Notes under the pieces: generated by a model
The model's database searches: none
Told to the model about the DNA's origin: nothing
The model's input: the letters and a program-made list of their open reading frames with translations, nothing else
Made by a program: the position numbers and the translations under genes
Shown here: positions 46,383 to 63,609 of the stretch, piece by piece
Layout: the number at the start of each line of letters is the position of its first letter
Position numbering within the stretch: position 1 is the stretch's first letter
Source: Candidatus Acidiferrales bacterium
GTDB taxonomy: Bacteria; Acidobacteriota; Terriglobia; Acidiferrales; UBA7541
Direction of reading: 5' to 3'
Length of the DNA: 64,000 bases
Assembly (NCBI GenBank): GCA_035934015.1
Contig: DASYYH010000027.1
Location: forward strand, 1 to 64,000

Positions 46383-47027
46383 ATGGCATTGCAAGTCATC
46401 CGAAGCGATAACCGCACTTCTCGAAAACTGTTAGCGGCGATCTATTCGCGAGTTTCAACCGTGGCCCACGGTCAAGACCCTGCGGTGCAAACGCGAGAAC
46501 TGCGCGAATACTGCGAGCGTCGAGGCTGGGAAGTTTTCGACTGTTACGAGGACGTCGGCGTCTCGGGGAAGAAAGACTCTCGCCCTCAGTTAAATCGCCT
46601 CATGCACGACGCACACGCTCGCCGCTTCGATGTGACCGTTTGCTGGCGCTTCGACCGTTTCTCCCGGTCCGTGTCGCATCTGTGCCGGGCGCTAGAAACA
46701 TTCAACGCGCTCGGCATCCAGTTCGTTTCGCTTTGCGAGCAGGTGGACACCAACACACCCACCGGAAAGCTCGTTTTTACGATCCTCGGAGCCGTAGCCG
46801 AAGGCGAGCGAAATCTCATTGCGGAGCGCGTGCGTGCAGGCTTGAAAAATGCCAGAGCCAAAGGAAAACGCCTCGGGCGACCGAGAAAAGCCGTCGATGT
46901 TGACCGAATCAACTCGCTCCGGGCGTCCGGGCATTCGTGGCGCTCGATAGCTGGTTTGATGAAAATGTCGGTCGGAACTGTTTACAGCGCTGCCCAGTCT
47001 CAGCACGCTAGTTCTCGATGCGCGTGA
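46383..47027 (+). CDS. Serine recombinase (resolvase/invertase family)
   Basis: The 214-residue protein has the catalytic resolvase domain (about 15-150) with YSRVSTVAHGQDPAVQ, containing the nucleophilic serine, then GVSGKKDSRPQLNRL and CWRFDRFSRSVSHLCRAL. The C-terminal DNA-binding part is LRASGHSWRSIAGLMKMSVGTVY, a Hin-type helix-turn-helix. The size fits small resolvases or invertases rather than large serine integrases. It is the only recombinase seen in the island; it might resolve or integrate the element. GAAGGAGG precedes the ATG. Confidence 0.9.
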   Translation: MALQVIRSDNRTSRKLLAAIYSRVSTVAHGQDPAVQTRELREYCERRGWEVFDCYEDVGVSGKKDSRPQLNRLMHDAHARRFDVTVCWRFDRFSRSVSHLCRALETFNALGIQFVSLCEQVDTNTPTGKLVFTILGAVAEGERNLIAERVRAGLKNARAKGKRLGRPRKAVDVDRINSLRASGHSWRSIAGLMKMSVGTVYSAAQSQHASSRCA

Positions 47028-48733: not shown

Positions 48734-49101
48734 TGACGGAAGACGAAGCCGACAAGATAGTCGCGACAATGTTCGACGAACTTGTCAGCACGAAGATCGA
48801 GGGTGGCAAGGTCACGGTCGAGACTGAGGTTCTCAGCCCCGACCCGGAAGAGGTGGAGGACGCGGTCGCCGACCTCGTCCGGTCGTGGCGGCGGTTCAAG
48901 GAGATGGACGCATCGGTCGCCGCGACCTCCGGCGCGAACCTCGGCATCGAGTGGTGGCGAGCCGTTAAGCGTTTGGCGCTCGCCGACTTCCGGCTCAAGG
49001 AAATGTTTTGCGGCCCTGACCGCTCGGCTCGCAGCATGCGGAAATTCCATAAGTATAAGCTGAAGTTAATCGACGGCAGGCGCTACAGGACAGATGCCTA
49101 G
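48733..49101 (+). CDS. Small acidic-basic island protein, function unknown
   Basis: The 122-residue protein begins MTEDEADKIVATMFDELV, is acidic at the N-terminus and basic at the C-terminus (RKFHKYKLKLIDGRRY). GGGGAGGAAG precedes the ATG. It is the last of the tightly packed small genes (46152-49101) before the DUF2779 nuclease. Confidence 0.5.
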   Translation: MTEDEADKIVATMFDELVSTKIEGGKVTVETEVLSPDPEEVEDAVADLVRSWRRFKEMDASVAATSGANLGIEWWRAVKRLALADFRLKEMFCGPDRSARSMRKFHKYKLKLIDGRRYRTDA

Positions 49102-49189
49102 TCCGCCGCTCGCTGCTGGGCTGTGCTTGTCTTTGGGCGGCATTCCGAGTCATTGTGCAGTTGGTGCAAGAGGAAACGGTGCGGTGACA

Positions 49190-50668
49190 ATGAAACTCAG
49201 CAAGTCGAAGTTCATTGCGGGCTGCCAATGCCTCAAGCGGCTCTATTTACAGGTACACGAGCCGGAACTCGCCGCTGACCCGGACGGTGCCACAGAAGCG
49301 ATTATCGAGCAAGGGCACGAGGTCGGCTTGCTTGCCCGCCAGTTGTTTCCGGCCGGGGTCGAGGTTCGCAGCGACGGCGGGTTGGGTCAGGCGATTCGCA
49401 CAACGAAGCAGCTAATCGCGAATCCCGAAATTCCGGCGATTTTCGAAGGTGCCTTTGAACACGAGGGCATAATCGTCAAAGCGGATGTCCTGCAACGTCG
49501 CAAGGAGAACCTCTGGCGTCTTGTGGAAGTGAAATCCGCCACCAATTTGAGAGACCAATACGTCCCAGACTTGGCGATTCAGAGCTACGTGCTCTCCGGC
49601 TTCGGCTTGAAACTAGCGTCGGTTTGGCTGGCTCATATCAACCGAGCATACGTGCTGACGGGAACAAGGGTTGATCCCCAACAGTTGTTTTCATTTCGAA
49701 ATCTCACCCAGAGAGTACGGAACTTCCAGCCCGAACTTATTTTGCGGCTGCGCTCACAACTCCATGTTCTGGCGATGCCGAAAGCTCCCGATGTTCCCAT
49801 CGGAGCACAGTGTCTCAATCCGTTCATCTGCGAGTTTTTCACTCACTGCAACCCACCCAAGCCGCACAACCACATTGGCTACCTCCTTCGCCTTGATGTG
49901 AATGCAATGAAAAAGCTGGAGCAAATGGGTGTTCAGTCTATCGAAGACATACCCGCAGATTTTGAGCTAACCGAGATTCAACGGCGTGCATGTACGGCGG
50001 TACAAACGGGGCAGCCATGCTTCAGTCCAGACCTCAAGAGACAGTTCGCATCTCTCAAATTTCCGCTTTACTTTATGGATTTTGAAACTGTCAACCCAGC
50101 GATCCCGCGATTTTCTGGCATGCGTCCCTACGATCACCTGCCGTTTCAGTGGTCAGTCCATGTGCAGCGCCAGCCGGGTGATGCGCCCGAACATTTTGAG
50201 TTCTTGGCTACGGACAGAGGCGACCCTCGAACTCCGTTTATCTCCGCGCTCTGTGAGGCTTTGGGAGAAGGTGACGGCAGCATCGTCGTATACAACGAGC
50301 AATTCGAGTCACAGCGACTTTGGGAGCTAGCGAGTTGGCGGCCCGCTTACACTGATCGCATCAGGGGAATCCAACGCCGCCTCTGGGACTTGCTCCCGGT
50401 GGTGCGCAATCACGTCTATCATCCGGCTTTCCGAGGCTCATTTTCTTTGAAAGCTGTTCTGCCCGCCTTCGTCCCCAACATGACATACGAGGGAATGGAA
50501 GTCCCAGACGGGCAGGCCGCTGGACTTGCATGGGAGTCGATGATCAGCGACGGTTGCAGTGAACCGGAACGACAAGCAAAACGGAAGACGCTCTTAGCTT
50601 ATTGTGGGCAGGACACACTGGCACTTGTGCGGCTTCTCGAAACACTCCAGAGTCGCTGCGCGACCTAA
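49190..50668 (+). CDS. RecB-like nuclease, DUF2779/TM0106 type
   Basis: The 492-residue protein begins MKLSKSKFIAGCQCLKRLYLQ, a Cys-containing N-terminus. A PD-(D/E)XK-like nuclease region shows Asp99 in VKADVL and Glu113-Lys115 in EVKSAT. Further Cys (FICEFFTHCNP) suggests a Cas4/AddB-like iron-sulfur site. The C-terminal half is the DUF2779 domain (YFMDFETVNPAIPRFSGMRPY and YCGQDTLALVRLLE), an RNase H-like exonuclease fold. Function is inferred as nucleic-acid processing. Its stop codon overlaps that of the convergent Res gene. It may be part of the same defence block. Confidence 0.75.
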   Translation: MKLSKSKFIAGCQCLKRLYLQVHEPELAADPDGATEAIIEQGHEVGLLARQLFPAGVEVRSDGGLGQAIRTTKQLIANPEIPAIFEGAFEHEGIIVKADVLQRRKENLWRLVEVKSATNLRDQYVPDLAIQSYVLSGFGLKLASVWLAHINRAYVLTGTRVDPQQLFSFRNLTQRVRNFQPELILRLRSQLHVLAMPKAPDVPIGAQCLNPFICEFFTHCNPPKPHNHIGYLLRLDVNAMKKLEQMGVQSIEDIPADFELTEIQRRACTAVQTGQPCFSPDLKRQFASLKFPLYFMDFETVNPAIPRFSGMRPYDHLPFQWSVHVQRQPGDAPEHFEFLATDRGDPRTPFISALCEALGEGDGSIVVYNEQFESQRLWELASWRPAYTDRIRGIQRRLWDLLPVVRNHVYHPAFRGSFSLKAVLPAFVPNMTYEGMEVPDGQAAGLAWESMISDGCSEPERQAKRKTLLAYCGQDTLALVRLLETLQSRCAT

Positions 50669-53382
50669 ACTTTGATGGGAGTGTTATCAGATTTCAGCGT
50701 AAAAGCTGCCGCGAGACCTTGGAGCGTCTTTGCTTCATCAACGGCATCATGAGGAATCAGCAGGTATGACCACGGCTTGCCGCCCACTGCAATTTCGTGG
50801 TTGGTAGCGTGCTCGCACCATTCGACTGCCGCCTTCGCTTTCTCCCGTACTTCAGCAGAGGCGATCTCTTTCCTCATTTTTGTTTCGCAAATTAGCTTCG
50901 CCGCTTTCGTTTCGATGACGAAATCTGGCTCGTAGGGAGTGCCGCCAGCGTAGTAGATGTGGAACGAATCTTTGCCGGGCTTGAACCACTTCACCACATC
51001 AACGTCGTTTTCCAGCAAAACCGAAAATCGGCGCTCTGTGTCGGACTGAAACCTTTGGGCGGGATACAAGCACCTTTTGAATCCTCCGAACAGCATGCCC
51101 CGAATCATCAGTTTCTCTTCCACCGGAATCCGAAAATCTCTTGGTTGTTCGCCCACGGGAATCGAATAGCTGCTGGGTCGAAGAGTTGTGAAGCCCTTGG
51201 TTACATGCGCCTCGTATTCGCTCGCCTTTTCTTCGTAGTGCTCCTGCATTTGCGAGTGGATGAGAGCCACGAGTTGCGCTTGGTGATATTGGAGAACGTT
51301 TTTGACATCTTCCTCGTCCGCAAGATACGACTGAAGATGCTTCACCGCTTGCCCTGCCAATTTGTACAGAAGGTCGGCTTGGTCGTCATAGCTCACGTCG
51401 TCGAAATCGACTAGACCTCGGACGAGGTAGTCTTCCAATCTTTCCTCGGGAACGATTCCGTCGCCGCTAATCAGGCGGTATCGCTGGTGGTCATTCAGGT
51501 GCGCAATCAGAATGTCCTTGGCGACTGGCTGAAGTTGGACGCTCTTCAGGTCGAGATCGAAGTCCCGGTAGCCTGCGGTCACTTCGCCCTTGGGAGTTAC
51601 AACGATGCGCGGGATGTCGATTGAGTTCTCGATGAAGAGGTTGACGGTCTTTGACACGATGGCGGGAATATCGGCTTGCGGAACAACCTCAGCAAGTTCG
51701 CCCTGCGCCGGAGCACTGGCTGCCTGAACCTTCTCCACGATTTTCTGGATATTCTCTGGTTTCCTCAGATCGTCCGACCGCGCCAGTCGCTCAAAATCCT
51801 TGAGCACCGTTAGAGTCGCCCGGGCTACCTCCTGCTCGCGCTTTGTGTTGAAGAGCGGCTTTTGCTCGGGAATCGTTGGGTCGGCAGCCGCCCGTTTTTC
51901 CAGATTTGATGTCACCTCAAAGACGGTCATGTTTTTATCGGGGATGTCACGACCAATTACAACTCCAGTTCTGATGATGGAGTCCGGCTTGTTTGCCTCG
52001 TCGATAATTTCTTGAAAGCGGTCGTGCGAAACGATGGTGAGGCGATCTACAGACGCGACGCCAACTCTCTTTCCGTAGGGCAGGCGCAATCCACGTCCTA
52101 TCGACTGCTCGACTAATGTCTTCGAATTTGCCGCACGCAGAGGAACAATGGTGTAAAGGTTCGTAACGTCCCAACCCTCTTTCAACATGTTCACATGGAT
52201 GACGATTTCGGTGGGGTTGTCCCGGCTCTCAACGGACAGAAGTTGTTGTACGGTTTCGTCCTTCTCGTCGCCCTTTTGATTCGAATGAACCGTGATCACC
52301 TTGCCTTTGTAGCGTCCCTCGAAGAACGAGTCGTCTTCAATTCGCTTCAACAAATCGTCGGCGTGGTCGGTGTTTTCAGCGACAACGAGCATGAACGGTT
52401 TAACGATAGGTTTGTCGTTATCCCTAGCGAACACTTCTAGCTCGACCTTGGTGTTCTCGTGGATTCGGACACCGTCTTCCAGTTTTAACTTCTCCAGCCC
52501 TGCCTTGTCGTAATTTTTCGCATCGAAGTTCTCTCTGGTCGCCACCGCTGGCTCCTTGACGAAGCCGTCCTTCATCGCGCTGGAGAGCGGATAGCTGTAG
52601 ATCACGTTCTTAAACGGCTCAGTCTTTCCACCCGTTTCTATCTGCGGGGTGGCGGTAAGCTCCAAGCCCAAGATCGGCTTCAACTCATTGATCGCCCTCA
52701 CGCCAGCCGTCGCACGGTAGCGGTGCGATTCGTCCATCATGAGCACGAGGTCGTGGAGTCCCGCTAAATAATCGAAATAGCTTTGCCCGATGTATTCGCT
52801 GAGGCGTTTGATTCGCGGGGCCTTGTCGCCGCGAACCTCGGCGTTGATCTTCGAGATGTTGAAGATGTTGATGTGAATCGGGCTGGCGTCGAACAAATCG
52901 CCAGTCTTCCCAAGAACTTCCGCGCTCCGCACGCCTCGACCGCTCTCGTAATTGTCGCCAGTGATGACTTCCGGTGGGTTCGTCGCAAACTCTGCGATTC
53001 CTTCGAACACATACTTCGGGGTGTTCGGCGTGAAGTCAGCGATCAGCTTGTTGTAGATGGTGAGGTTTGGGGCGAGAACAAAGTAGTGGCGACTCAATTT
53101 CTGCCTGAAGAGATACGCAATGAAGGCACCCATGAGCCGGGTCTTGCCGACACCCGTTGCAAGGGCAAAGCACAGGGAGGGAAAATCCCGCTCGAAATCG
53201 GTGACGGATGGAAATTCCGCTTGAATCGTCTTTAGAGCGTTGCCAATCTCCAGTTCTGACGCGCCGGATACGATACGATCCAATGCAAGGATTTCAGCGA
53301 CTCGTGCCAGAATCTCCAGCGATTCCCGCTGCGGCAAACGGAGGCTTAGCCGATTCGCGATAGCGTTCACCGCAGAGTTCAT
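50665..53382 (-). CDS. Type III restriction Res-like helicase-nuclease
   Basis: The 905-residue protein has a superfamily 2 helicase core: Walker A ATGVGKT (Lys80), DESH (217-220), LTATP (about 242) and motif VI EQSIGRGLRLPYG. The C-terminus holds a PD-(D/E)XK-type nuclease, YEPDF (Asp820) followed by ETK (833-835). These are the marks of type III Res subunits, which pair with Mod to cut unmethylated DNA. It overlaps the upstream methyltransferase gene (ATGA) and completes the three-gene operon with the SNF2 helicase. Confidence 0.88.
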   Translation of the reverse strand: MNSAVNAIANRLSLRLPQRESLEILARVAEILALDRIVSGASELEIGNALKTIQAEFPSVTDFERDFPSLCFALATGVGKTRLMGAFIAYLFRQKLSRHYFVLAPNLTIYNKLIADFTPNTPKYVFEGIAEFATNPPEVITGDNYESGRGVRSAEVLGKTGDLFDASPIHINIFNISKINAEVRGDKAPRIKRLSEYIGQSYFDYLAGLHDLVLMMDESHRYRATAGVRAINELKPILGLELTATPQIETGGKTEPFKNVIYSYPLSSAMKDGFVKEPAVATRENFDAKNYDKAGLEKLKLEDGVRIHENTKVELEVFARDNDKPIVKPFMLVVAENTDHADDLLKRIEDDSFFEGRYKGKVITVHSNQKGDEKDETVQQLLSVESRDNPTEIVIHVNMLKEGWDVTNLYTIVPLRAANSKTLVEQSIGRGLRLPYGKRVGVASVDRLTIVSHDRFQEIIDEANKPDSIIRTGVVIGRDIPDKNMTVFEVTSNLEKRAAADPTIPEQKPLFNTKREQEVARATLTVLKDFERLARSDDLRKPENIQKIVEKVQAASAPAQGELAEVVPQADIPAIVSKTVNLFIENSIDIPRIVVTPKGEVTAGYRDFDLDLKSVQLQPVAKDILIAHLNDHQRYRLISGDGIVPEERLEDYLVRGLVDFDDVSYDDQADLLYKLAGQAVKHLQSYLADEEDVKNVLQYHQAQLVALIHSQMQEHYEEKASEYEAHVTKGFTTLRPSSYSIPVGEQPRDFRIPVEEKLMIRGMLFGGFKRCLYPAQRFQSDTERRFSVLLENDVDVVKWFKPGKDSFHIYYAGGTPYEPDFVIETKAAKLICETKMRKEIASAEVREKAKAAVEWCEHATNHEIAVGGKPWSYLLIPHDAVDEAKTLQGLAAAFTLKSDNTPIKV

Positions 53383-55175
53383 TTGCCTTTGTCTCCTTTC
53401 TCGGCGGCGGTGGCAAACAACTCCATAGAGTCATTATTGCGTTTCTTGCGACCGTTCGTTTGAAGCGAGGGGACTAGTTCCGGCTCGACTGCTTGTGGCA
53501 AGTTCTTGACCTCTAGACTGTAGTCATCCCTGCCCCATTCGCAGCGATTTAGAACCATCTTCGGAATCTTCTTGATGGTCATGTTCGGGAACTGCGAAAC
53601 GTCTCTTACTCGGAATGCCGAGCAGCACACCAGTAGGGATCGGTTCTCACCAACTTCGTCGCTCAGCTTTTGCAGTTGTTCGCGGGTGAGCGTCTGTGTG
53701 GTTACGTAGATAAAGTCACGCTCGGTGGAAAACCCATGGTTCCAATAATCAGCACCACTTGGTGCATACGTGAAACCCTCGAATTTGCACATAGCCTCGG
53801 CGAGCATCGCAGCGTTATATCGCTTGCTTATCACCCAGTTGCCGAACTTGTCCTTCTCAAGTAGCGAAGAGGCAAGACGGAAATAGCGGAACCCACCACC
53901 GCCTAGCCACCCAACTTCTCCAGTTATGCCACTCTCGTCGATTCCGTCGATGATGCGTTGTAATCTCGGAATTATAAGAGTGTGACAGTGATCCCTAAGC
54001 TCAACCATGATCCAGCGCCGTCTCATCTTGTGTGCTACTGCCCCTGTGGTTCCCGACCCAGCAAATGAATCGAGAACGATATCCCCGGGTCGAGAAAAGT
54101 GCTTCAAGATGATCTCCATGTATGTTTCCGGTTTCTTACCGGATCGAAAATCCACACCTCCTTCGTGTCTGCAATTTCCAAAATTTGCGGCAAGATCGTA
54201 AAAGTTCTCGATTGGTTTTTCTTTCGAGGAGCGACCGTTCAGGAGTTCCGCCAACCTGTCGAGCGGAATGCCTGAATAGAATTTCCCCTTGGTTGCTGCG
54301 GCTCTTTTGGGCCCCGTAAAGTATCTATAACCAATGCCGTCTTCGCCTATGCCGTACACCTTATAAAGGCATCCCAGCCCGTCTTCTTCTTTCCGGGGAG
54401 ACAAGTATTTCGCAAGAAACTCTCCCGAGCTTGCCTTCTGTTTTATCAGGGAGCCTGTTGCCCATGTCTCTTTCAGTGCCTTAAGGTGTGGTTTAACTTT
54501 TGTGACTTCGTATTCCCCGAGACGGAATACCTCCACTTTCTTCCCCGCCACTTCAACCTGTTTCCATGGAGTCTTCTCTCGGACTTCCCACTCGAACTTT
54601 TCGACTTTATATTCTTCGGATGCTTTCAGTGGGCGGCAAAGTGCGGCATCTCTTGCATAAACAAGGCATTGTTCGATCACCTTTTGATAATCATTATCTT
54701 CGGCTAAGGTCTTGTTGCCGTACCGCACTTGAATGTACATAGAGGTTAGATAATTAGCTCGACCGAACACTTCATCCAAAAGAACTTTGAGGTAATGACC
54801 TTCCGAGTCGTCAATGTGGCAGCAGAAGAACCCATCAGGTGCAAGGAGTCTTCTGAGAATTTCAAGTCTGTCGCGCATCAGGCTAAGCCAGACAGAGTGC
54901 TCCAGACCGTCATCATAGTGCTCGAATGCGTTTCCGCTGTTGAAAGGCGGATCGATGAAAATGCAATTGATCTTGTTTCCGAACTCCTGTTCAAGCGCCT
55001 TCAACGCCAAAAGATTGTCGCCAAAGATCACACGATTATCGAATAAGTCGTCATCTGTTATTTTTGCGTGAGCATGATACGATTTACTCGCATCCTCCAG
55101 CAGAATACGCGGCTCCAATAACGGGCGACTCTCTTTGCCTATCCACGTTAATTCCAGCTTTGTTGTTTTATTCAT
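53379..55175 (-). CDS. Beta-class adenine-type DNA methyltransferase (type III Mod-like)
   Basis: The 598-residue protein has its catalytic motif first, IFIDPPFNSGNAF (Asp75), and the SAM-binding motif second, DSFAGSGTTG (about 369-378), with the target-recognition region between them. This order defines beta-class enzymes and fits type III Mod. DPPF rather than DPPY is within the accepted range. ATG 55175 follows AGGAG very closely; GTG 55190, two bases past the previous stop, is the alternative. The gene sits between the SNF2 helicase and Res genes. Confidence 0.88.
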   Translation of the reverse strand: MNKTTKLELTWIGKESRPLLEPRILLEDASKSYHAHAKITDDDLFDNRVIFGDNLLALKALEQEFGNKINCIFIDPPFNSGNAFEHYDDGLEHSVWLSLMRDRLEILRRLLAPDGFFCCHIDDSEGHYLKVLLDEVFGRANYLTSMYIQVRYGNKTLAEDNDYQKVIEQCLVYARDAALCRPLKASEEYKVEKFEWEVREKTPWKQVEVAGKKVEVFRLGEYEVTKVKPHLKALKETWATGSLIKQKASSGEFLAKYLSPRKEEDGLGCLYKVYGIGEDGIGYRYFTGPKRAAATKGKFYSGIPLDRLAELLNGRSSKEKPIENFYDLAANFGNCRHEGGVDFRSGKKPETYMEIILKHFSRPGDIVLDSFAGSGTTGAVAHKMRRRWIMVELRDHCHTLIIPRLQRIIDGIDESGITGEVGWLGGGGFRYFRLASSLLEKDKFGNWVISKRYNAAMLAEAMCKFEGFTYAPSGADYWNHGFSTERDFIYVTTQTLTREQLQKLSDEVGENRSLLVCCSAFRVRDVSQFPNMTIKKIPKMVLNRCEWGRDDYSLEVKNLPQAVEPELVPSLQTNGRKKRNNDSMELFATAAEKGDKGK

Positions 55176-55193
55176 GCTCCTGCCGCGCACCGT

Positions 55194-58082
55194 TCACTTC
55201 AGTGACCAACGTACCGTAAACACCGGGGTTACATTGCAATCCTGCTGAAGTTTCCTCTCTATCGTCTCGATCAGGTCTTGCCGCTGCTTATCCACCCGGT
55301 CTTGGGCATCGAACAGTTCCCGGCGCTTACGGTTTCGTGCCGATTCAAGCTCACGAACTTGCTTTTGGATGGACAACTTCTCCGCCAAAGCCACAGCGAT
55401 TTGAGCGGATCGTCTCGTCTCCCGAATCTGTCGGTCGAGTTCCTTCAACTCTTGCTCCAACCCGATCTTGAGATCGTCTGACCAGCGGTCGAGCTTATCC
55501 AATTCGCTTTCGAAGAATGCCGCATTTCGCTCTGTAAGTTTCGCTAGAACTTCATTTTGTTGCCTTTGCAGACCCTCGTCCAACAGCGCTTGAAGCTGTT
55601 CAGACAAGGGAGAGCAATCTTCTCGTTTCTCTGATGCACCGAGCGAGAAGAATCGGCGGCACTGCTCCGCATCCATAGGAGTACCGTCATCGCACACGGC
55701 GCTCAAAAGAACGAAATCCTCGGTTTCGAGAGCGGTCACCGTTTGACAAGTGATCCGCATGAAGCCCTGCTTTCCGACGAGCGGCTCAAGGATAGAGATT
55801 TTCTTGCCGGAGTGCGAATATTCGAATGCCAACGCTTGCGAATCAGGCTCAAAGGCTTTACACCGCTCAATGATGCGCTGAGCGAGAGGGTGCCCCAACC
55901 TATATAAGTTGGCATCCTCGATGTTCTTGCCGCTACGGTACGGGCCGGGGTGAATCTGCTCTTCGGGGAACGGGTTCTTGATCAGCGTGAATCCATTTTG
56001 TCCATCGTCGAATTTGGCATAGGGCTGGAGGAAGAAGCGGGTCAGTTGCCAGAGCCAGTTATCGTACTTGGTCAGGGCTTCGCTGCTTTCTCGTTGGTTC
56101 ACCCGCAGTTTTTCGTGAACCTCCTCGTCGAAGTTCTCTAGCAACTTTTGGCGGGTCTGTTTTATGCGCTCGTCAATCTGAACTTCCATTTCCTGCTGAA
56201 GCTGGTCGAAATTAAACTGAATCTGCTCCTCCGTCCGGCACTTTTGGTAGATGTCAGCGATACGCTTTTCGAAATCTATGCCGGAGCCGATGCTTCCAAG
56301 CACTTCGTCGCTGGCTCCGAAGACACCGCTGAAGAGCTTGAACTTCTCATCAAGCAGTTGATATACGCGCTGATCCGCAGCGTTCTTTTTGTTGAGAAAA
56401 TTCACGACGACCACGTCGTGCTTTTGCCCGTACCGATGACAGCGCCCGATCCGCTGTTCGATCCGTTGCGGATTCCACGGCAGGTCGTAATTGATTACCA
56501 AGGAGCAGAACTGGAGGTTGATGCCTTCCGCAGCCGCTTCGGTCGCGACCATGATGATTGCCTCGTCTCGGAAGTAGTCAACGAGGGCAGCCCGCATGTC
56601 AGCAGTCTTCGAGCCTGTGATCAGGTCGGTGCCTTCATGCTTCTTCAGCCAGTCCTGATAAATCTCCTTCGATTTGGGATCGTTGTTCGAGCCATTGAAT
56701 AGGACGACTTTGCCTTTGTAGCGGGGAAGCTCCTCAAGAATGGAGCGGACGTATTCCTGAGTCCGAGTGGACTCCGTGAAGATGATCGCCTTTTCTCTAC
56801 CGCCCTTGCTTTTCGCTTCCGCTAGCCCACGCTTCAGCGCGGTTTGAAGTCTCTCGCCTTTCGAGTTTTTGACAATCGAATTCGCGAGTTCAGTAAAAAG
56901 CCGGAGCGACTGAATCTCTTCTGCCACCTTTCCCAACTCTTCCGGGCTGAGCACTCGTGGATCGGACTTCTTCTCACCCGCGCTCTCGTCCTCCTCTTCT
57001 TCCCATTCGTCCTCCAATTCCTCAAAGCTCTCGAAGGTTTCGGGTACCTCTTCAGGAGGCTCCACAACGGGTTTTTGCGCCTCAGTGGCTTTTTCCAGCT
57101 TTTCCGCCAATCCCTTCAGCGTTCCCGCAATCGCAAATGTCGATGAAGCCAAGAGCCGTCTGAGGATCAGAGTCATCAACTGCCGTTGGCTTGCTGGAAG
57201 CGCGTAGAGATTCTGCCGTTGCAGATAATCGGAGACGAGGTTGTAGAGCTTCTGCTCCGGCTCGCTCGGGATGAACTCCTCCACCAGTGCGATACGATTC
57301 GTAAACGGGATGTATTCGAGCACTTGACGCCGGAGTGTCCGTTGGCAAATCGGCTTCAGACGCTCACGTAGCGACCGAAAATCACCGTCCGTGTCCAGCC
57401 GAGAGAACTGGCTGCGAAAGCTCTTGATGTCCCCGAAAATGTGCTCATCGATGATGCTGACCAAGCCGAAAAGTTCGAGGAGCGAGTTCTGAAGGGGCGT
57501 GGCGGTCAGAAGCAACTTGTCAAACGGCGCGAGAGCAGCCTTGAGCGCATTCCCGATCTTGTTCGTGGGCTTGTACACGTTCCGAAGCCGATGCGCCTCA
57601 TCAATCACTGCGAGGTTCCATGCGACTTGCCTAACATACGGCTCTTTGGAGCGAGCAAACTGGTACGAGCAGATCACGATCTCGGAGCGGTCGAATGGGT
57701 TCAGGTTCCCCGCTCGAATCTGCTCGTTGAAAGTCTTCGTTTCCAGCAGTACAGAGGGCAGGAAGAACTTGTCCGAAAGCTCCTGATGCCACTGTTTGCG
57801 GAGGCTGGCGGGAACGATGATCAAAATTTTCCTCTTTCGTTCCGCCCACCGCTGGGACAACAGAATCCCTGCTTCAATGGTTTTACCGAGACCAACTTCA
57901 TCGGCGAGGATCGCCCCCTTCGAGAGCGGAGAGCGGAAAGCGAACAGCGCAGCCTCGACCTGATGCGGGTTCAAGTCAACCTGCGCGTCAGCAAGGGAAG
58001 CAGCCAGCTTCTCCATGCTGTCGGAGGCACACCGTTTTGTCAGTTCATACGCAAAGTACTTCGCGTGGTATGCAGTGCTCAT
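55194..58082 (-). CDS. SNF2/RapA-like helicase of a defence operon
   Basis: The 962-residue protein has the SNF2-type helicase motifs: ADEVGLGKTIEAG (Lys67), IDEAH (about 160-164), LLTATPLQNS, and in the second lobe GINLQFCSLVINYDLPWNPQRIEQRIGRCHR. The C-terminal 150 residues are a long charged coiled coil (RQIRETRRSAQIAVALAEK and on). It resembles RapA-like ATPases linked with DNA methyltransferase-Res pairs in defence loci. ATG 58082 (MSTAYHAKYFA) is the preferred start. It is the first gene of the operon, with 91 bp to the divergent TIR gene. Confidence 0.85.
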   Translation of the reverse strand: MSTAYHAKYFAYELTKRCASDSMEKLAASLADAQVDLNPHQVEAALFAFRSPLSKGAILADEVGLGKTIEAGILLSQRWAERKRKILIIVPASLRKQWHQELSDKFFLPSVLLETKTFNEQIRAGNLNPFDRSEIVICSYQFARSKEPYVRQVAWNLAVIDEAHRLRNVYKPTNKIGNALKAALAPFDKLLLTATPLQNSLLELFGLVSIIDEHIFGDIKSFRSQFSRLDTDGDFRSLRERLKPICQRTLRRQVLEYIPFTNRIALVEEFIPSEPEQKLYNLVSDYLQRQNLYALPASQRQLMTLILRRLLASSTFAIAGTLKGLAEKLEKATEAQKPVVEPPEEVPETFESFEELEDEWEEEEDESAGEKKSDPRVLSPEELGKVAEEIQSLRLFTELANSIVKNSKGERLQTALKRGLAEAKSKGGREKAIIFTESTRTQEYVRSILEELPRYKGKVVLFNGSNNDPKSKEIYQDWLKKHEGTDLITGSKTADMRAALVDYFRDEAIIMVATEAAAEGINLQFCSLVINYDLPWNPQRIEQRIGRCHRYGQKHDVVVVNFLNKKNAADQRVYQLLDEKFKLFSGVFGASDEVLGSIGSGIDFEKRIADIYQKCRTEEQIQFNFDQLQQEMEVQIDERIKQTRQKLLENFDEEVHEKLRVNQRESSEALTKYDNWLWQLTRFFLQPYAKFDDGQNGFTLIKNPFPEEQIHPGPYRSGKNIEDANLYRLGHPLAQRIIERCKAFEPDSQALAFEYSHSGKKISILEPLVGKQGFMRITCQTVTALETEDFVLLSAVCDDGTPMDAEQCRRFFSLGASEKREDCSPLSEQLQALLDEGLQRQQNEVLAKLTERNAAFFESELDKLDRWSDDLKIGLEQELKELDRQIRETRRSAQIAVALAEKLSIQKQVRELESARNRKRRELFDAQDRVDKQRQDLIETIERKLQQDCNVTPVFTVRWSLK

Positions 58083-58149
58083 CGCAAGGCGCAATCATAC
58101 ATCGAGAACCGATGGCGCTGTTGCCTAGATCGCCAATCCGCGCCTAAAA

Positions 58150-58169
58150 GCGCCTATACTGTCAGGCGC
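58150..58169. promoter_or_regulatory. Operator-like palindrome over a -10 box between divergent defence genes
   Basis: GCGCCT (58150-58155) and AGGCGC (58164-58169) form a 6-8-6 palindrome. The -10-like TATACT (58155-58160) lies inside it, seven to nineteen bases before the TIR gene ATG (58174). Further copies of GCGCCT (58139-58144) and AGGCGC (58087-58092) are near. No clear -35 is seen. Confidence 0.4.
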
Positions 58170-58173
58170 AACT

Positions 58174-59733
58174 ATGGGCACACAGGCGAAATTAGAACTA
58201 CAGCATCCTTCCTCGACTGAGAAGGACATATTTCTATGTCACAACGGCGCAGATAAGCCGTGGGTCGAGGCACTTGCCGAGCGGATCGAGCGCGAACCGT
58301 ACCGCGACCGTCGTCTCGCAGTCGTTTTCGACAAATGGGATTTCGAAAAGGGCGGCAACATCGTCCTCGATATTGAGCGATTTCTGGATAAGACCCGCTT
58401 CGTAGGTGTGGTCGTATCCCGCCCAATGCTGAACGCAGAGTGGCCGAGTTTGGAACGAAGCATCGCGGTGTGGAGCGACCCTTCGGGGGCACGCGGCCGG
58501 GTGATTCCCTTGTTGAAGGACAACATAACCCTCCCGGCAACTCTGAGGGTGCGGAACTGGATCGATTTCCGCGATCCCGAGAAGTTTGAGGAGAGCTTTG
58601 CCGAACTCATTCGGTACCTGCGGGGAGAGCCAATTCCAAGGGGCAAGGGCAGCTTTCTCCCCATGGTTCCGGCAACGCGTGCACCCTATGAACCAGCCCC
58701 TGTGCTTATCACTTCTTCCGTGGGTGCTGATCGGGTAACCGAACGCTTGGTCTGCAATCTCTACAGGGTCACCAGCCTGCCCGAGAGGGTGCACTACGCG
58801 TCAACGAACCTGCGTGAGAAGAAGGAAATCCAAAAATACTGCGAAAACGCGCCGCCATTCATCCTTCGTGAAGGAAATCTTTTCACTTTCTCTGACCTCA
58901 GCACGTGCGAGGCGTTGCGTCCAGTCTTGAAGAAAGATGCACGGACTGATTCGGACGCGTTCAAGGACTGGTTCTCAGATGAGGACTACAGTCGCCGCGC
59001 CATCGAACTTCTGAACGTCTGCCTGCGACAACACGCGTGGGAGCGTCGGCTCCGCTTCGACCGCATCAAGTCGCGGTACTTTTTCCAGCCACGCGGCATT
59101 CAGGTCGAAACAGAGGAAGCCAGCTCCGGTGTGGTGAAATATCGCTACAGCGGCGGCAAGCCTGTCCGTATCGCGTGGAAAATTGGCGGTAGAACCCGAT
59201 GGAGAGAAGTAACGACACGCCATATTCGCCGAGTCAAGCAGGAGGACGGCACCTACAAAGAAGAACCGTTCGGCTGGCGGCACCAAGGTTTCCGGGCTAA
59301 TTTCGTGCTGGTGTTCGAGAGCTTGATGCTACGGATCGAACCGACTTATCTTCTGACAAAGGACGACGGGAAGACGCCGCGTACATCGCGGTGGGTCGGC
59401 CCGATCCTATCGCACTGGCTAAATCAAGAACGGAACGGTCAAATTCTAAGGTCGCTCCGCTTCTGGTCGCTTGTGCTGGCGAGACCAAAAGAGCTAACGA
59501 TTGAGACGGGGCAGATGCCTATTCAGGTTGACCTCACGCCGATTTCGGGGGCGCTTGGGTTTGGCATTGTCAGCGACCAAGTGAATTTTGACCGCCTGAT
59601 GGATGCCGAAATACGGGACGACAGGAAAGTTCCTCAGCTTGAGCTTTTTGGGGAGGAAACCTCGATTGCGTACACGGAAGAAGCGGGCTTTGCCGAGGAA
59701 GACCGCGAGGACGAGAAGGCCATCGAAAGTTAA
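58174..59733 (+). CDS. TIR-APAZ-like protein of a short-Argonaute (SPARTA-type) system
   Basis: The 519-residue protein has an N-terminal TIR domain (about 15-155): KDIFLCHNGADKPWVEALAE, the BB-loop region KWDFEKGGNI, and VVVSRPMLNAEWPSLERS, whose Glu94 is the likely NAD-cleaving residue. Residues 165-515 form a long beta/alpha region with VCNLYRVTSLPERVHYAS, LLNVCLRQHAWERRLRFDR and FRANFVLVFESLMLRIEPTYLLTKDDG, consistent with the APAZ domain that replaces the Ago N/L1/L2 parts. In such systems the complex depletes NAD(P) when the Argonaute binds guided target DNA. No ribosome site is visible. It overlaps the following PIWI gene. Confidence 0.82.
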   Translation: MGTQAKLELQHPSSTEKDIFLCHNGADKPWVEALAERIEREPYRDRRLAVVFDKWDFEKGGNIVLDIERFLDKTRFVGVVVSRPMLNAEWPSLERSIAVWSDPSGARGRVIPLLKDNITLPATLRVRNWIDFRDPEKFEESFAELIRYLRGEPIPRGKGSFLPMVPATRAPYEPAPVLITSSVGADRVTERLVCNLYRVTSLPERVHYASTNLREKKEIQKYCENAPPFILREGNLFTFSDLSTCEALRPVLKKDARTDSDAFKDWFSDEDYSRRAIELLNVCLRQHAWERRLRFDRIKSRYFFQPRGIQVETEEASSGVVKYRYSGGKPVRIAWKIGGRTRWREVTTRHIRRVKQEDGTYKEEPFGWRHQGFRANFVLVFESLMLRIEPTYLLTKDDGKTPRTSRWVGPILSHWLNQERNGQILRSLRFWSLVLARPKELTIETGQMPIQVDLTPISGALGFGIVSDQVNFDRLMDAEIRDDRKVPQLELFGEETSIAYTEEAGFAEEDREDEKAIES

Positions 59734-61231
59734 GGCGCTTCGCGCCGTATCGCTGGAATCCTTACTGTCGCAAAACACGGACAGGCTCACTTGCACGTAC
59801 CTCGCCGAGCCGGAGCTTCTGTTTGGCAACAAACAGCGATGCGTTGATCCCCGTACAGGGCTTGCTGCGTTCGGCCCATACAGCAAGACTGATGCTACGC
59901 GGCGGGAACACATTCATGTCGGGATTGTCGGCCCCGCGGACGCAATCGACAGGGCGGTTGCGCTGCTCGCCCAGATACAGAACCCGATTGATCAGAAGGA
60001 ATCCGTCGATTGTGTGCTTCATCCATCGTTCCCCGGCATGAATTCAGGTGAACCATTCCAAATCGACATCACAACTCAGCCGATCTGGCGTCGCCCACTT
60101 CGTGCCCTTGACGTTCGGCTGGTTGAGCAAGAGGAGGATTTCACTCGCCGCGTTGGACTCCTGAAAAAGTTCGTCGCTGAAGAAGTTCACGCTCTTGCGG
60201 CGCTGGATTCGCCTCCTGATGTCGTCATCTGTGCCATGTCTCAGAACCTCGAAGAGCTTTGCCGAACCGGAATTGCCGAATACGACCGTGAGCATGCTGA
60301 AATCGCAGACCTATTGGGCGGCGACGTCGAGGAAGCGCCGGATGACACATCCCGCAGCTTTCGTAGGGGGCTGAAGGCGGAATGCATGGACGTTTTGCCG
60401 ACGCAGTTAATTTGGCACAAGACGTTGACCGGAACCCGAGGCGTACAGGATTTGGCGACACGGGCGTGGAATCTGACTACAGCCCTCATGTACAAAGCGA
60501 AGATCATTCCGTGGCGGCTGGCGGACATAGTGGAAGGCTCGTGTTTTGTGGGCTTGTCCTTCTACCACGAAGATGAAGCACGGTCGCCGTTCCTGCGAAC
60601 AAGCATCGCGCAGGCGTTTACCGACCGAGGAGAAGGATTTGTGTTACGCGGCGAAACCGTCGAATGGGACGAGCGTAAGGAAAAGGAAAAAGCCCCTCAT
60701 TTGACGAGTGCTCAAGCGCAGCAGATTCTCGGTCGGGTTGTTGAGGTTTATGAGAAACAGGTCGGTATCAGGCCAAGAAAAGTCGTACTCCACAAGACAT
60801 CCCGCTACAACGAAGACGAACGTGCCGGGTTTGAAGCCGCTCTAGCCGGGCAAACACCGCAATACTCATTCCTGACGATTACGCGACGAGGCATTTTCTG
60901 CCTACGACCGGGATACAAAGCTGTTTTGCGAGGAACGATCATCGACTTTGGCGGCAAGAAGGGCTTGGTGTATACGACGGGTTACGCGCCTTTCTTGCGG
61001 TGTTACTCCGGCTTTCGAATCCCGCAGCCACTCGAAATTTCGGAGAACTGGGGTTCGCTGACGTTCCACGAATGCGCTGAGGACATCCTCAGGCTGACGA
61101 AGCTCAACTGGAATACTTCTGCTTTCGCTACGCATGACCCGATCACACTCGCTTTTTCTCGACGCGTGGGCGACATCCTGAAGCTCGCCGGGAATCGCGA
61201 CCCCGCAGTCCAATATCGGTACTACATGTAG
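59666..61231 (+). CDS. Short prokaryotic Argonaute (MID-PIWI, catalytically degenerate)
   Basis: The protein (521 residues from TTG 59666) has a basic N-terminal tail (RTRKKRALPRKTARTRR), then MID and PIWI regions without PAZ or N domains. PIWI marks are VQDLATRAWNLTTAL...IIPWRL, GSCFVGLSFYHED, RPRKVVLHKTSRYNED, and the C-terminal LTKLNWNTSAFATHDPITLAFSRRVGDIL. The first catalytic Asp of active Argonautes is Ser in GLSFY, and HKTSRY lacks the HxD-type Asp, so slicing is unlikely. GGGGAGG lies nine bases before TTG 59666, inside the TIR gene; ATG 59603 is the other candidate. It would guide-load and switch on the TIR protein. Confidence 0.85.
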   Translation: MRTRKKRALPRKTARTRRPSKVKALRAVSLESLLSQNTDRLTCTYLAEPELLFGNKQRCVDPRTGLAAFGPYSKTDATRREHIHVGIVGPADAIDRAVALLAQIQNPIDQKESVDCVLHPSFPGMNSGEPFQIDITTQPIWRRPLRALDVRLVEQEEDFTRRVGLLKKFVAEEVHALAALDSPPDVVICAMSQNLEELCRTGIAEYDREHAEIADLLGGDVEEAPDDTSRSFRRGLKAECMDVLPTQLIWHKTLTGTRGVQDLATRAWNLTTALMYKAKIIPWRLADIVEGSCFVGLSFYHEDEARSPFLRTSIAQAFTDRGEGFVLRGETVEWDERKEKEKAPHLTSAQAQQILGRVVEVYEKQVGIRPRKVVLHKTSRYNEDERAGFEAALAGQTPQYSFLTITRRGIFCLRPGYKAVLRGTIIDFGGKKGLVYTTGYAPFLRCYSGFRIPQPLEISENWGSLTFHECAEDILRLTKLNWNTSAFATHDPITLAFSRRVGDILKLAGNRDPAVQYRYYM

Positions 61232-61787: not shown

Positions 61788-62831
61788 CTACTTCTTTTTG
61801 AATACGAAGATCGGCTCCGTTTTGAAGGCACTTTTTCCGATGTGCTTCAGTCCGACCATTTTGGACAGTTGCAGATGCAAGGTCTCGACTCGACGCCAGC
61901 CGTTGTCTTCCGCGAATTTGACGAAGACTTTTGTCAGATTTGGATACGCAGCCACGCTGGCGATGTTGATCGCGAGGATTCCATTTCTCTTGAGACCGTG
62001 GGCGCAGTTGCGGAGGGTCGCCCCGATGAACCCGTGCAGCCAACTCTCCTGCGTAGGAAATTTGCAGTGGCTTTGCGTCGGTTCGTCGCTGTAATGTTCC
62101 CACCCGAAGTAGCTGGGACTACTGAACGCACAGTCCAAGGAATTCCGCTCCGGCTGGAAATCCTCGCTTCCAACCTTGTGAAGTTCGACTTCCATCGTCC
62201 GCCGACCGAATTGTTCAGCCATCGGAACGAGTTCCGCAGCCATCTCACGAAGCCCGTCCATAGCGTAGGTCGAGGGATCGGTTCCGATGTAACGATTCAC
62301 GCGGTCGCAGGCGAGCGCTCCCAGCAGGCGACCGCCAAATCCTGCCGACATGTCCCAGACCGCGCCGCCGCTTTCTGGAAGGAGCCGATGATAAACAGCG
62401 GCGGCTGCCGTGGGGCGAAAATTGGAAACGGATTGCGTGCTGGAGAAGCTCCTCAATATTTTTCGCAGCCCGCTGTCGGTGAATGCGTTCCCGAGTTTTG
62501 TCCGCCGCTCGATTGCCCTGAGAAATAGCAGATCATTGCTGAACAACTCAACTGGGGTCTTCCTGTTCCCGCACCTCACAGTCCACGCAAGGGGATGATA
62601 GTGCCAAGCCAGCGCGAGACCGTGCATCGTTTGCTTGATCCGCCCCTGCTTGTCGATGATCGTTGCGTGGTCGGCGACGAGAAGGTCGAGAAGGTCATGC
62701 CGTTTCTCATCCCTCTTCAGTGAGTAAACGGGAAAGCCCTGTTCTCGATATTGCTCGAAATCGGCGCGGCATGACGCGAGGTCGTCATGTCGAAGGAAAG
62801 GCAGCACTGCTGGTCGTGCGCTAGTGCCCAT
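61788..62831 (-). CDS. Mobile-element DNA methyltransferase-like protein with SPSY active-site variant
   Basis: The 347-residue protein has a class I methyltransferase fold with DMSAGFGGRLLGAL (about 160-173) as the SAM site and FSSPSYFGWEHY (Ser-Ser-Pro-Ser-Tyr, 237-241) where amino-methyltransferases carry (D/N/S)PP(Y/F). The order (SAM site first) and the spacing suggest a DNA amino-methyltransferase or a relative that modifies another substrate. The second Pro is Ser, which could lower activity. It starts at ATG 62831 (GGAG ten bases upstream) and overlaps the stop of the preceding gene by 11 bases. Confidence 0.7.
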   Translation of the reverse strand: MGTSARPAVLPFLRHDDLASCRADFEQYREQGFPVYSLKRDEKRHDLLDLLVADHATIIDKQGRIKQTMHGLALAWHYHPLAWTVRCGNRKTPVELFSNDLLFLRAIERRTKLGNAFTDSGLRKILRSFSSTQSVSNFRPTAAAAVYHRLLPESGGAVWDMSAGFGGRLLGALACDRVNRYIGTDPSTYAMDGLREMAAELVPMAEQFGRRTMEVELHKVGSEDFQPERNSLDCAFSSPSYFGWEHYSDEPTQSHCKFPTQESWLHGFIGATLRNCAHGLKRNGILAINIASVAAYPNLTKVFVKFAEDNGWRRVETLHLQLSKMVGLKHIGKSAFKTEPIFVFKKK

Positions 62832-63609
62832 TCCGACCGTTCTCCGGCGAATCCCCAAGCATCAGCGCGTGCCGAACTCTCGCTTGCCGCACAATAGCCA
62901 AACTGACTCCGCAGGCTTTTGCTGTTTCCTCGTCGGTGCCGCCGTTCTTGGCGATGAACTTGGCGATGCCATAGTGCATGTCGGCGCAGCCGCCGCAGTC
63001 TTGAGGGAAGGGTTTCTGAGTGGGTAGAATCGGCGGCAACGTGGCACTACCGTTCATCGCACTGTTTTGAGTTCTAGCTACGGCACGGCGATTTTGTTTA
63101 GCACGACTGTTCTGATTTCCGCGACTCGTCACGGCGACGGATACCTCAACTCGCCCGTGCCGCTCGCCGAACCGATCTGCCACGGCTTGCGCGAAGCTCT
63201 GAATCACTTTGGCGAAACGCTCGCCGCTTTCAAGCGGCCCAAACACCTTCGCCATCTGGTTCTCGGTGAGCATGAGCAGTGCACGCCAATCGCCTTTGGC
63301 CAATCTGGACTGTGCCTTCTGCCCTCGCGAAGAAATTTCGCTAGGCTCGCTTAGGAGTTGCTGCACGCGGCGGGGACTGACATGCAGATTTTGCTTGATC
63401 CATTCCGTCCAGCAGGGGCGTCCGGGCACAGGGACTTGCCGCCCCGGCTGCGCCCATCGCCTCCGCGCCTCCCGCAAATAGGGGACAAGCTCTCGCAGTT
63501 TCCTGAAGCCCTGAACGCACTTGTCCACCAACTCCGCGTCCGACAGCGTTCGCACGAAGTCGTCGGCTGGCTGAGCTTGAAAATCCAGCGTTCTCCTCTG
63601 GGGCAGCAA
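62821..63609 (-). CDS. Mobile-element protein with HTH-like segments, function unknown
   Basis: The protein (262 residues from TTG 63609) contains ELVDKCVQGFRKLRELVPYL, then WTEWIKQNLHVSPRRVQQLL, a helix-turn-helix-like unit. The C-terminal segment GGTDEETAKACGVSLAIVRQAR is a second HTH-like unit. A CGGCADM motif (two Cys) precedes it. TTG 63609 has AGGAG eight bases upstream; the frame is open to 63951, but the extra part (rich in Cys and Arg) looks non-coding. It resembles uncharacterised phage/plasmid proteins. It is the first of the minus-strand pair with the methyltransferase. Confidence 0.6.
   Translation of the reverse strand: MLPQRRTLDFQAQPADDFVRTLSDAELVDKCVQGFRKLRELVPYLREARRRWAQPGRQVPVPGRPCWTEWIKQNLHVSPRRVQQLLSEPSEISSRGQKAQSRLAKGDWRALLMLTENQMAKVFGPLESGERFAKVIQSFAQAVADRFGERHGRVEVSVAVTSRGNQNSRAKQNRRAVARTQNSAMNGSATLPPILPTQKPFPQDCGGCADMHYGIAKFIAKNGGTDEETAKACGVSLAIVRQARVRHALMLGDSPENGRNGH

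Follow-up and report, generated by a model that had tools for sequence, protein, structure and literature searches.

Three minus-strand genes in the genome of an Acidiferrales bacterium, encoding an SNF2-family protein, a methyltransferase (Mod) and a restriction protein (Res), form one tight operon that probably represents a three-gene, type III-like, ATP-dependent restriction-modification (R-M) system of the Eco86II kind, in which SNF2 would act as a DNA motor in vivo. The operon lies within the window, by which we mean the whole analysed stretch of 64,000 nt of contig DASYYH010000027.1. Type III systems with m4C methylation were described by Murray et al. in 2021, and two of the six systems in the study, Eco86II of E. 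coli NCTC86 and BspHIV of Acinetobacter sp. H, have an extra gene for a helicase-like ATPase 5′ of mod; over 500 genomes have this gene near mod and res, and it was left without an assigned function (PMC8259958). Here, the gene is assigned to one SNF2 clade that keeps its place through changes in the class of Mod and Res. Moreover, SNF2 occurs across many phyla as well as in E. coli, often beside an exchangeable putative effector gene, which makes the role of the extra ATPase testable in E. coli.

Layout of the operon and its three proteins

The original prediction of a type III-like Mod/Res pair tightly linked to an SNF2 gene holds, all three genes being found on one strand at the positions given in Table 1. 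The nearly absent gaps that it reported are likewise present: the stop of Mod and the start of Res overlap by 4 nt (ATGA), and the stop of SNF2 is separated from Mod by 3 nt with the GTG start or by 18 nt with the ATG start. Since AGGAG is located upstream of the ATG and the N-termini of homologues match the same start, a gap of 18 nt is the most likely. Motif inspection showed that each of the three proteins has its catalytic motifs intact. Scans of promoters (3 matches versus a mean of 5.6 in shuffled sequences) and terminators (13 versus 15.6) revealed no excess, and the promoter scan found no sigma-70-like match in the divergent intergenic region next to SNF2.

Table 1. Features of the operon and its surroundings in the window
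Feature	Coordinates	Strand	Remarks
SNF2-family DNA motor, 962 aa	55194..58082	-	Predicted RapA-like fold without the first ~120 residues of RapA
Mod, beta-class amino-methyltransferase	53379..55175	-	598 aa from the preferred ATG
Mod, alternative longer start	55190	-	GTG
Res, SF2 ATPase with C-terminal PD-ExK nuclease, 905 aa	50665..53382	-	
SNF2-Mod junction	55176..55193	-	Empty in the window
Divergent intergenic region, 91 bp	58083..58173		Between SNF2 and the TIR-APAZ gene; presumed promoter region
TIR-APAZ protein	58174-59733	+	TIR_2 2.2e-20; divergent, 91 bp from SNF2
Short pAgo	59603-61231	+	PADLOC pAgo_I 6.2e-134; SPARTA-like pair with TIR-APAZ
DUF2779 putative nuclease	49094-50668	+	PF11074 3.4e-42; convergent with Res, stops overlap by 4 nt
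Serine resolvase	46383-47027	+	PF00239 3.2e-46
Protein with weak MADS mad2 match	61788-62858	-	27.4 bits; no Pfam match

SNF2 matches PF00176 (3.4e-36) and PF00271 (5.8e-21) and displays the motifs GLGKT, DEAH and QRIGR at residues 64, 161 and 543, respectively. DrmD models gave its highest-scoring matches in both PADLOC (679 bits) and NCBIfam (682 bits), and its closest solved structure, both by sequence and by Foldseek, is RapA. The predicted structure (pLDDT 79.7, pTM 0.62) aligns with RapA 8t0l_F over 734 residues (Z 19.5, rmsd 4.5, chain 123-966). Neither domain searches nor the structure model revealed a nuclease domain in SNF2, which makes Res the most likely source of the nuclease action. 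It is well supported that SNF2 is a conserved motor of the double-strand-DNA-translocase type and that its gene remains linked to Mod and Res.

Equally well supported are the assignments of Mod to the beta-class amino-methyltransferases, its recognition domain being variable, and of Res to the ATPases, its PD-ExK motif being intact. In the PADLOC search proposed with the original prediction, Mod was identified as MTase_III (574 bits) and Res as REase_III (806 bits). Mod also matches PF01555 (1.3e-37) and has the beta order of motifs, with motif IV (DPPF) at residue 80 and motif I (FAGSG) at residue 376 in GTG-based numbering. Residues ~151-350 are hypervariable in the alignment and have conserved flanks; this region is likely the target recognition domain. 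Among PDB chains, Mod matches those of EcoP15I, of an H. pylori-type Mod and of Mbo45V. Res matches PF04851 (1e-19) and contains ATGVGKT at residue 75, DESH at residue 217 and PD-ExK from residue 819, its similarity to the EcoP15I Res (4zcf_C) being weak (1.6e-9, 39.7 bits). The pair therefore has the parts of a type III enzyme, namely, a beta-class Mod with a predicted central recognition domain and a Res combining an SF2 ATPase with PD-ExK.

The neighbours listed in Table 1 are joined, beyond the window end on the same contig (65417-69528 and 71878-73050; L199), by the RNA-repair genes Pnkp (PF16542, 3.5e-184) and Hen1 (PF12623, 1.3e-114) and by a tyrosine integrase gene. The proximity of RNA repair to ribonuclease-type defences is suggestive. 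Taken together, TIR-APAZ/pAgo, DUF2779, Pnkp/Hen1 and the integrase around the operon look like a mobile defence island, the left edge of which is possibly represented by the serine resolvase.

Association of one SNF2 clade with different Mod/Res classes

To define the genomic context of SNF2, 105 loci (L032-L136) were retrieved from the phylum, plasmids and a genome collection, with similarity to SNF2 as the sole criterion. Loci with an SNF2 match of at least 650 bits and at least 7.5 kb downstream were considered assessable (n = 67, including five plasmid loci hand-picked from 30 and the near-identical L043-L045). The other 38 were excluded before the count, 26 with less than 7.5 kb downstream and 12 with a weaker SNF2 match; Mod and Res were both present in four of these 12 and both absent from eight. 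Both genes are found in 64 out of the 67 assessable loci, the exceptions lacking Mod and/or Res being L078, L123 and L125. Such a proportion argues that the linkage of SNF2 with Mod and Res is not due to chance. The 64 loci span over a dozen phyla, and in 62 of them SNF2 is followed, directly or after an intervening slot, by Mod and then Res; in the remaining two, Mod-Res is located upstream. In the reverse direction, SNF2 is present in 16 out of 19 genomes with a window-type Res, and in the three others the locus lies at a contig edge (G258), has decayed to leave a piece of SNF2 (G285) or holds just part of Res (G386). Four loci that were too distant or lacked Mod/Res were scanned as well; one of them, L130, turned out to be DISARM, and no match to a defence gene was obtained for the neighbours scanned in L078 and L118.

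Relatives were detected in 59 of 72,556 plasmid records, 33 of the 59 being conjugative. In E. coli, relatives are found at the DNA level in 248 of 5,426 genomes, with 245 of 252 places being chromosomal. A small HTH gene, labelled MAD1 by NCBI, lies just upstream of the E. coli SNF2 gene (L222:11814-12014, L223:9814-10014). The score of the L222 protein (83.5 bits; MAD1 cut-off 80) suggests that it may be a generic excisionase-like regulator. MADS consists of the genes mad1-mad8, and a search of nine window proteins with NCBIfam MADS models produced no match; PADLOC output comprised up to 25 matches.

In a ‘quick’ LG+G4 tree of 97 SNF2 sequences, built after exclusion of L044 and L045 as near-duplicates and of L041 and L123 because of their excessive length, 79 sequences form a single clade (SH-aLRT 99). 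It comprises 66 of the 67 sequences from SNF2-Mod-Res loci and 13 from loci that are unclear and in most cases truncated. Outside this clade lie RapA and four DrmD proteins scoring over the NF038317 cut-off. The only SNF2-Mod-Res member outside it, L127, pairs near the base of the family with DrmD of the DISARM locus L130. Due to the long branches of RapA, the distant helicases and L135, the deep branching order in this tree is unsure. Based on BLAST, three classes of Mod/Res can be defined: A, window-like; B, of ~1050/1100 aa; and C, of ~650/990 aa. The class changes at least eight times on the SNF2 tree (74 sequences: A 45, B 23, C 6). Tight class A operons are also found on plasmids of Paracoccus marcusii (L219) and Ketogulonicigenium robustum (L220).

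Possible roles of SNF2 and alternative readings

The proposed role in clearing roadblocks draws on what SNF2 motors do in general. By analogy with type III enzymes, a Mod dimer would mark a single strand at an asymmetric site of the host DNA, whereas on unmarked phage DNA Mod2Res would spend ATP to leave the site and slide, and its encounter with a second complex would lead to cutting. SNF2 would stand outside methylation and basal cutting and act in the infected cell, where its motor might clear or remodel protein-covered phage DNA, allowing Mod2Res complexes to meet; alternatively, it might lengthen the communication between sites to the same effect. Our best guess is that SNF2 serves the restriction complex in vivo as a motor for clearing or remodelling proteins bound to DNA. 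As reported for Eco86II, this enzyme methylates GAGCC and cuts ~25 bp away, its helicase was dispensable for methylation, with Mod working alone, and a partly purified fraction cut DNA while the helicase was undetected there by mass spectrometry, raising the possibility that SNF2 is no subunit of the enzyme (PMC8259958). No phage test of the helicase-bearing type III class was found in the literature searched.

The main rival to the motor reading is a guard function, which arises from the content of the slot between SNF2 and Mod. Among the 62 ordered loci, the SNF2-Mod gap is up to 200 nt in 21, 201-700 nt in six and more than 700 nt in 35, the extra DNA in the last group consisting mostly of genes. 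Gaps exceeding 700 nt are found in 29 of 39 class A, four of 19 class B and two of six class C loci. A gene of at least 200 aa is located between SNF2 and Mod, or less often between Mod and Res, in 40 of the 64 loci. In a Pfam scan of 30 slot representatives, many matched known toxin or abortive-infection families, and the names obtained include AIPR, Abi_2, AbiV HEPN, SIR2, Fic, RhuM, OLD and PLD, as well as Schlafen-AlbA, YhcG nuclease, DUF4411, GmrSD-HNH and kinase; a few representatives were of other kinds (ParA, sigma factor, DUF2130 or no match). In E. coli LS45, the slot holds both Abi and AIPR. The most common slot gene, found in 12 loci, encodes an ABC-type ATPase with an RNxxGxH motif in its C-terminal domain that is invariant in all 10 aligned sequences. 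The model of this domain has a mean pLDDT of 76, and Foldseek gave weak hits (best E 0.29). A second structure comparison, using a model built from a 5-row alignment, returned mostly HEPN among its best matches (Z 7.4-9.5), and the domain models as a HEPN-like bundle.

These genes would fit a two-tier platform, in which SNF2-Mod-Res both restricts DNA and silences a suicide effector in the slot, with SNF2 serving as a sensor or holder. A phage that blocks or overloads restriction would then free the effector, as PrrC is freed by PrrI. The window, with its slot empty, would be a stripped version, possibly using the adjacent SPARTA-like pair. We consider this reading possible but doubtful. Coupling between core and effector is putative, and defence islands gather such genes anyway. 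Furthermore, slot genes are absent from the 21 loci with the shortest gaps, from the window and from Eco86II, implying that the core works or persists without them. The SPARTA-like pair is divergent and lies outside the slot, and short pAgo matches were found in just two other loci (L043 and L051). Published work already describes HEPN domains embedded in R-M operons and guarding by PrrC (PMC3710099), as well as AIPR as common in R-M operons (PMC2292703); the portions of the open-licence literature covered by our search contained no description of the SNF2-slot-Mod-Res arrangement.

A broader and similarly tentative idea sees SNF2-Mod-Res as a mobile and widespread platform for restriction, into whose slot effectors can be plugged. 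SNF2 would be its constant component, Mod/Res and suicide effectors would be exchanged, and the core would guard the effector, such that phage anti-restriction leads to cell death; the pairing of SNF2 with type III genes would have arisen at least twice, including HKD-SNF2. The slot data suggest searching type III loci for embedded effectors, as has been done for type I systems (PrrC) and BREX.

According to a less likely reading, the window encodes an ordinary two-gene type III R-M system, and the SNF2 gene, travelling along by chance, serves defence or maintenance independently of it. The Eco86II results, with cutting in a fraction where no helicase was detectable and Mod working alone, agree with it (PMC8259958). 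An EcoP15I-like Res control points the same way: among the same 396 genomes of the phylum, 17 have such a Res, all 17 scoring below the model's own cut-off, and the window-type SNF2 is found beside none of them. However, the fetched stretch of nine of the 17 loci (L203-L208, L211, L213 and L216) contains a different SNF2-like helicase, an argument in favour of a function. All six of these helicases that were scanned match the PADLOC HKD+Snf2 model, and the nine loci represent a second SNF2/type III pairing. Chance travel is also at odds with the linkage across many phyla and with the retention of SNF2 through the class changes of Mod/Res. In L203, L204 and L207, DUF2779 genes also occur beside the HKD-SNF2 and type III genes.

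Very little favours the possibility that the operon is a reduced or diverged DISARM, with SNF2 as DrmD and Mod as the DrmM component, and we regard it as largely refuted already. Although DrmD models are the best matches of SNF2, and L127, a Mod-Res locus, joins the L130 DrmD near the base of the family, SNF2 scores 682 bits against a cut-off of 950 and 275.5 against 610 with the DrmD models, compared to 1448 bits on the PADLOC model for DrmD of a true DISARM locus. None of the 396 genomes has a match over the 950-bit curated cut-off, the search of these genomes for DrmD_b (NF038318) giving none over the cut-off. Moreover, the nine window proteins scanned include neither DrmA nor DrmB, the sole PF09369 gene of the genome is on another contig, and Res is not a DISARM gene. 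A housekeeping RapA, the RNA-polymerase recycler, is still less probable: despite being the closest solved structure, RapA branches far outside the SNF2 clade (SNF2 falling within a RapA clade would have spoken against the original prediction), SNF2 scores 168 bits against a cut-off of 576, its model leaves uncovered the residues of RapA before ~122, which belong to the N-terminal RNA-polymerase-binding region, and its gene is present in just 21 of 396 genomes of the phylum.

Two side observations concern DrmD relatives. L130 is a true DISARM locus (DrmMII, DrmD, DrmA, DrmB) with a type III-like Mod of 698 aa in front. L054, L055, L056 and L135 contain another DrmD-like SNF2 gene, followed in L056 and L135 by genes of ~390 aa and ~1000-1100 aa; the large proteins of L054 and L056 match LmuB, and these four loci possibly represent an unnamed three-gene system.

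Comparison with known systems

The original prediction had likened the operon to helicase-methylase-ATPase loci rather than to simple restriction. Hma comprises an m5C methylase and an ATPase together with a helicase (HmaB, HmaC and HmaA; PMC8565338), whereas in the window the methylase is a PF01555 amino-methyltransferase of the beta class, the third gene is Res (REase_III), and HmaA is just a side match to SNF2 (197 versus 679 bits for the DrmD model). ARMADA consists of a YprA-like helicase, a BrxHII-like SNF2 and a PglX-like methyltransferase (PMC12458937); the operon has no YprA-like gene. What is found instead is restriction-modification plus an extra gene, as described for Eco86II and BspHIV in 2021 (PMC8259958).

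The likeness to DISARM is confined to DrmD being the nearest named SNF2 family, with SNF2 staying under the DrmD cut-offs and DrmA and DrmB missing next door. PrrI-PrrC provides a precedent for a suicide ABC-HEPN nuclease inside an R-M operon (PMC3710099), but PrrI is a type I system and the window slot has no such partner. HKD-SNF2 (PADLOC C3a139) is another case of an SNF2-family helicase near type III genes, differing in the helicase family and in its Mod/Res class, which is EcoP15I-like. EcoP15I and EcoP1I share with the window a beta-class Mod with a central recognition domain, predicted in our case, and a Res with an SF2 ATPase and PD-ExK; however, they are usually described as two genes, and the Res similarity is weak. 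To our knowledge, classical type III systems have not been described with an SNF2 gene.

Eco86II is the closest in organization. In its NCTC86 locus, SNF2 is followed by Mod and Res with no gene in the slot, the helicase, as in the window, is without a nuclease motif, and it shares 45% identity with SNF2 of the window along the full length (969 columns). By contrast, the window Mod matches that of Eco86II just in short motif stretches by BLAST, Res gave no BLAST match at 1e-5, and the Eco86II Mod and Res are of class B (1040/1126 aa), whereas those of the window are of class A (598/905 aa). The m4C mark is described for Eco86II and BspHIV, and the window Mod, being of another class than that of Eco86II, may set this mark or a different one; the N6A methylation presumed in the original prediction finds no support, as the characterised three-gene relatives methylate N4-cytosine, and the class difference leaves the m6A mark unproven. 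The gene arrangement of the helicase-bearing type III kind, a nuclease-less SF2 helicase-like gene 5′ of mod followed by res, is nevertheless present, and the homologous helicase combined with a different Mod/Res class indicates that the window operon is a further member of the Eco86II kind belonging to another class.
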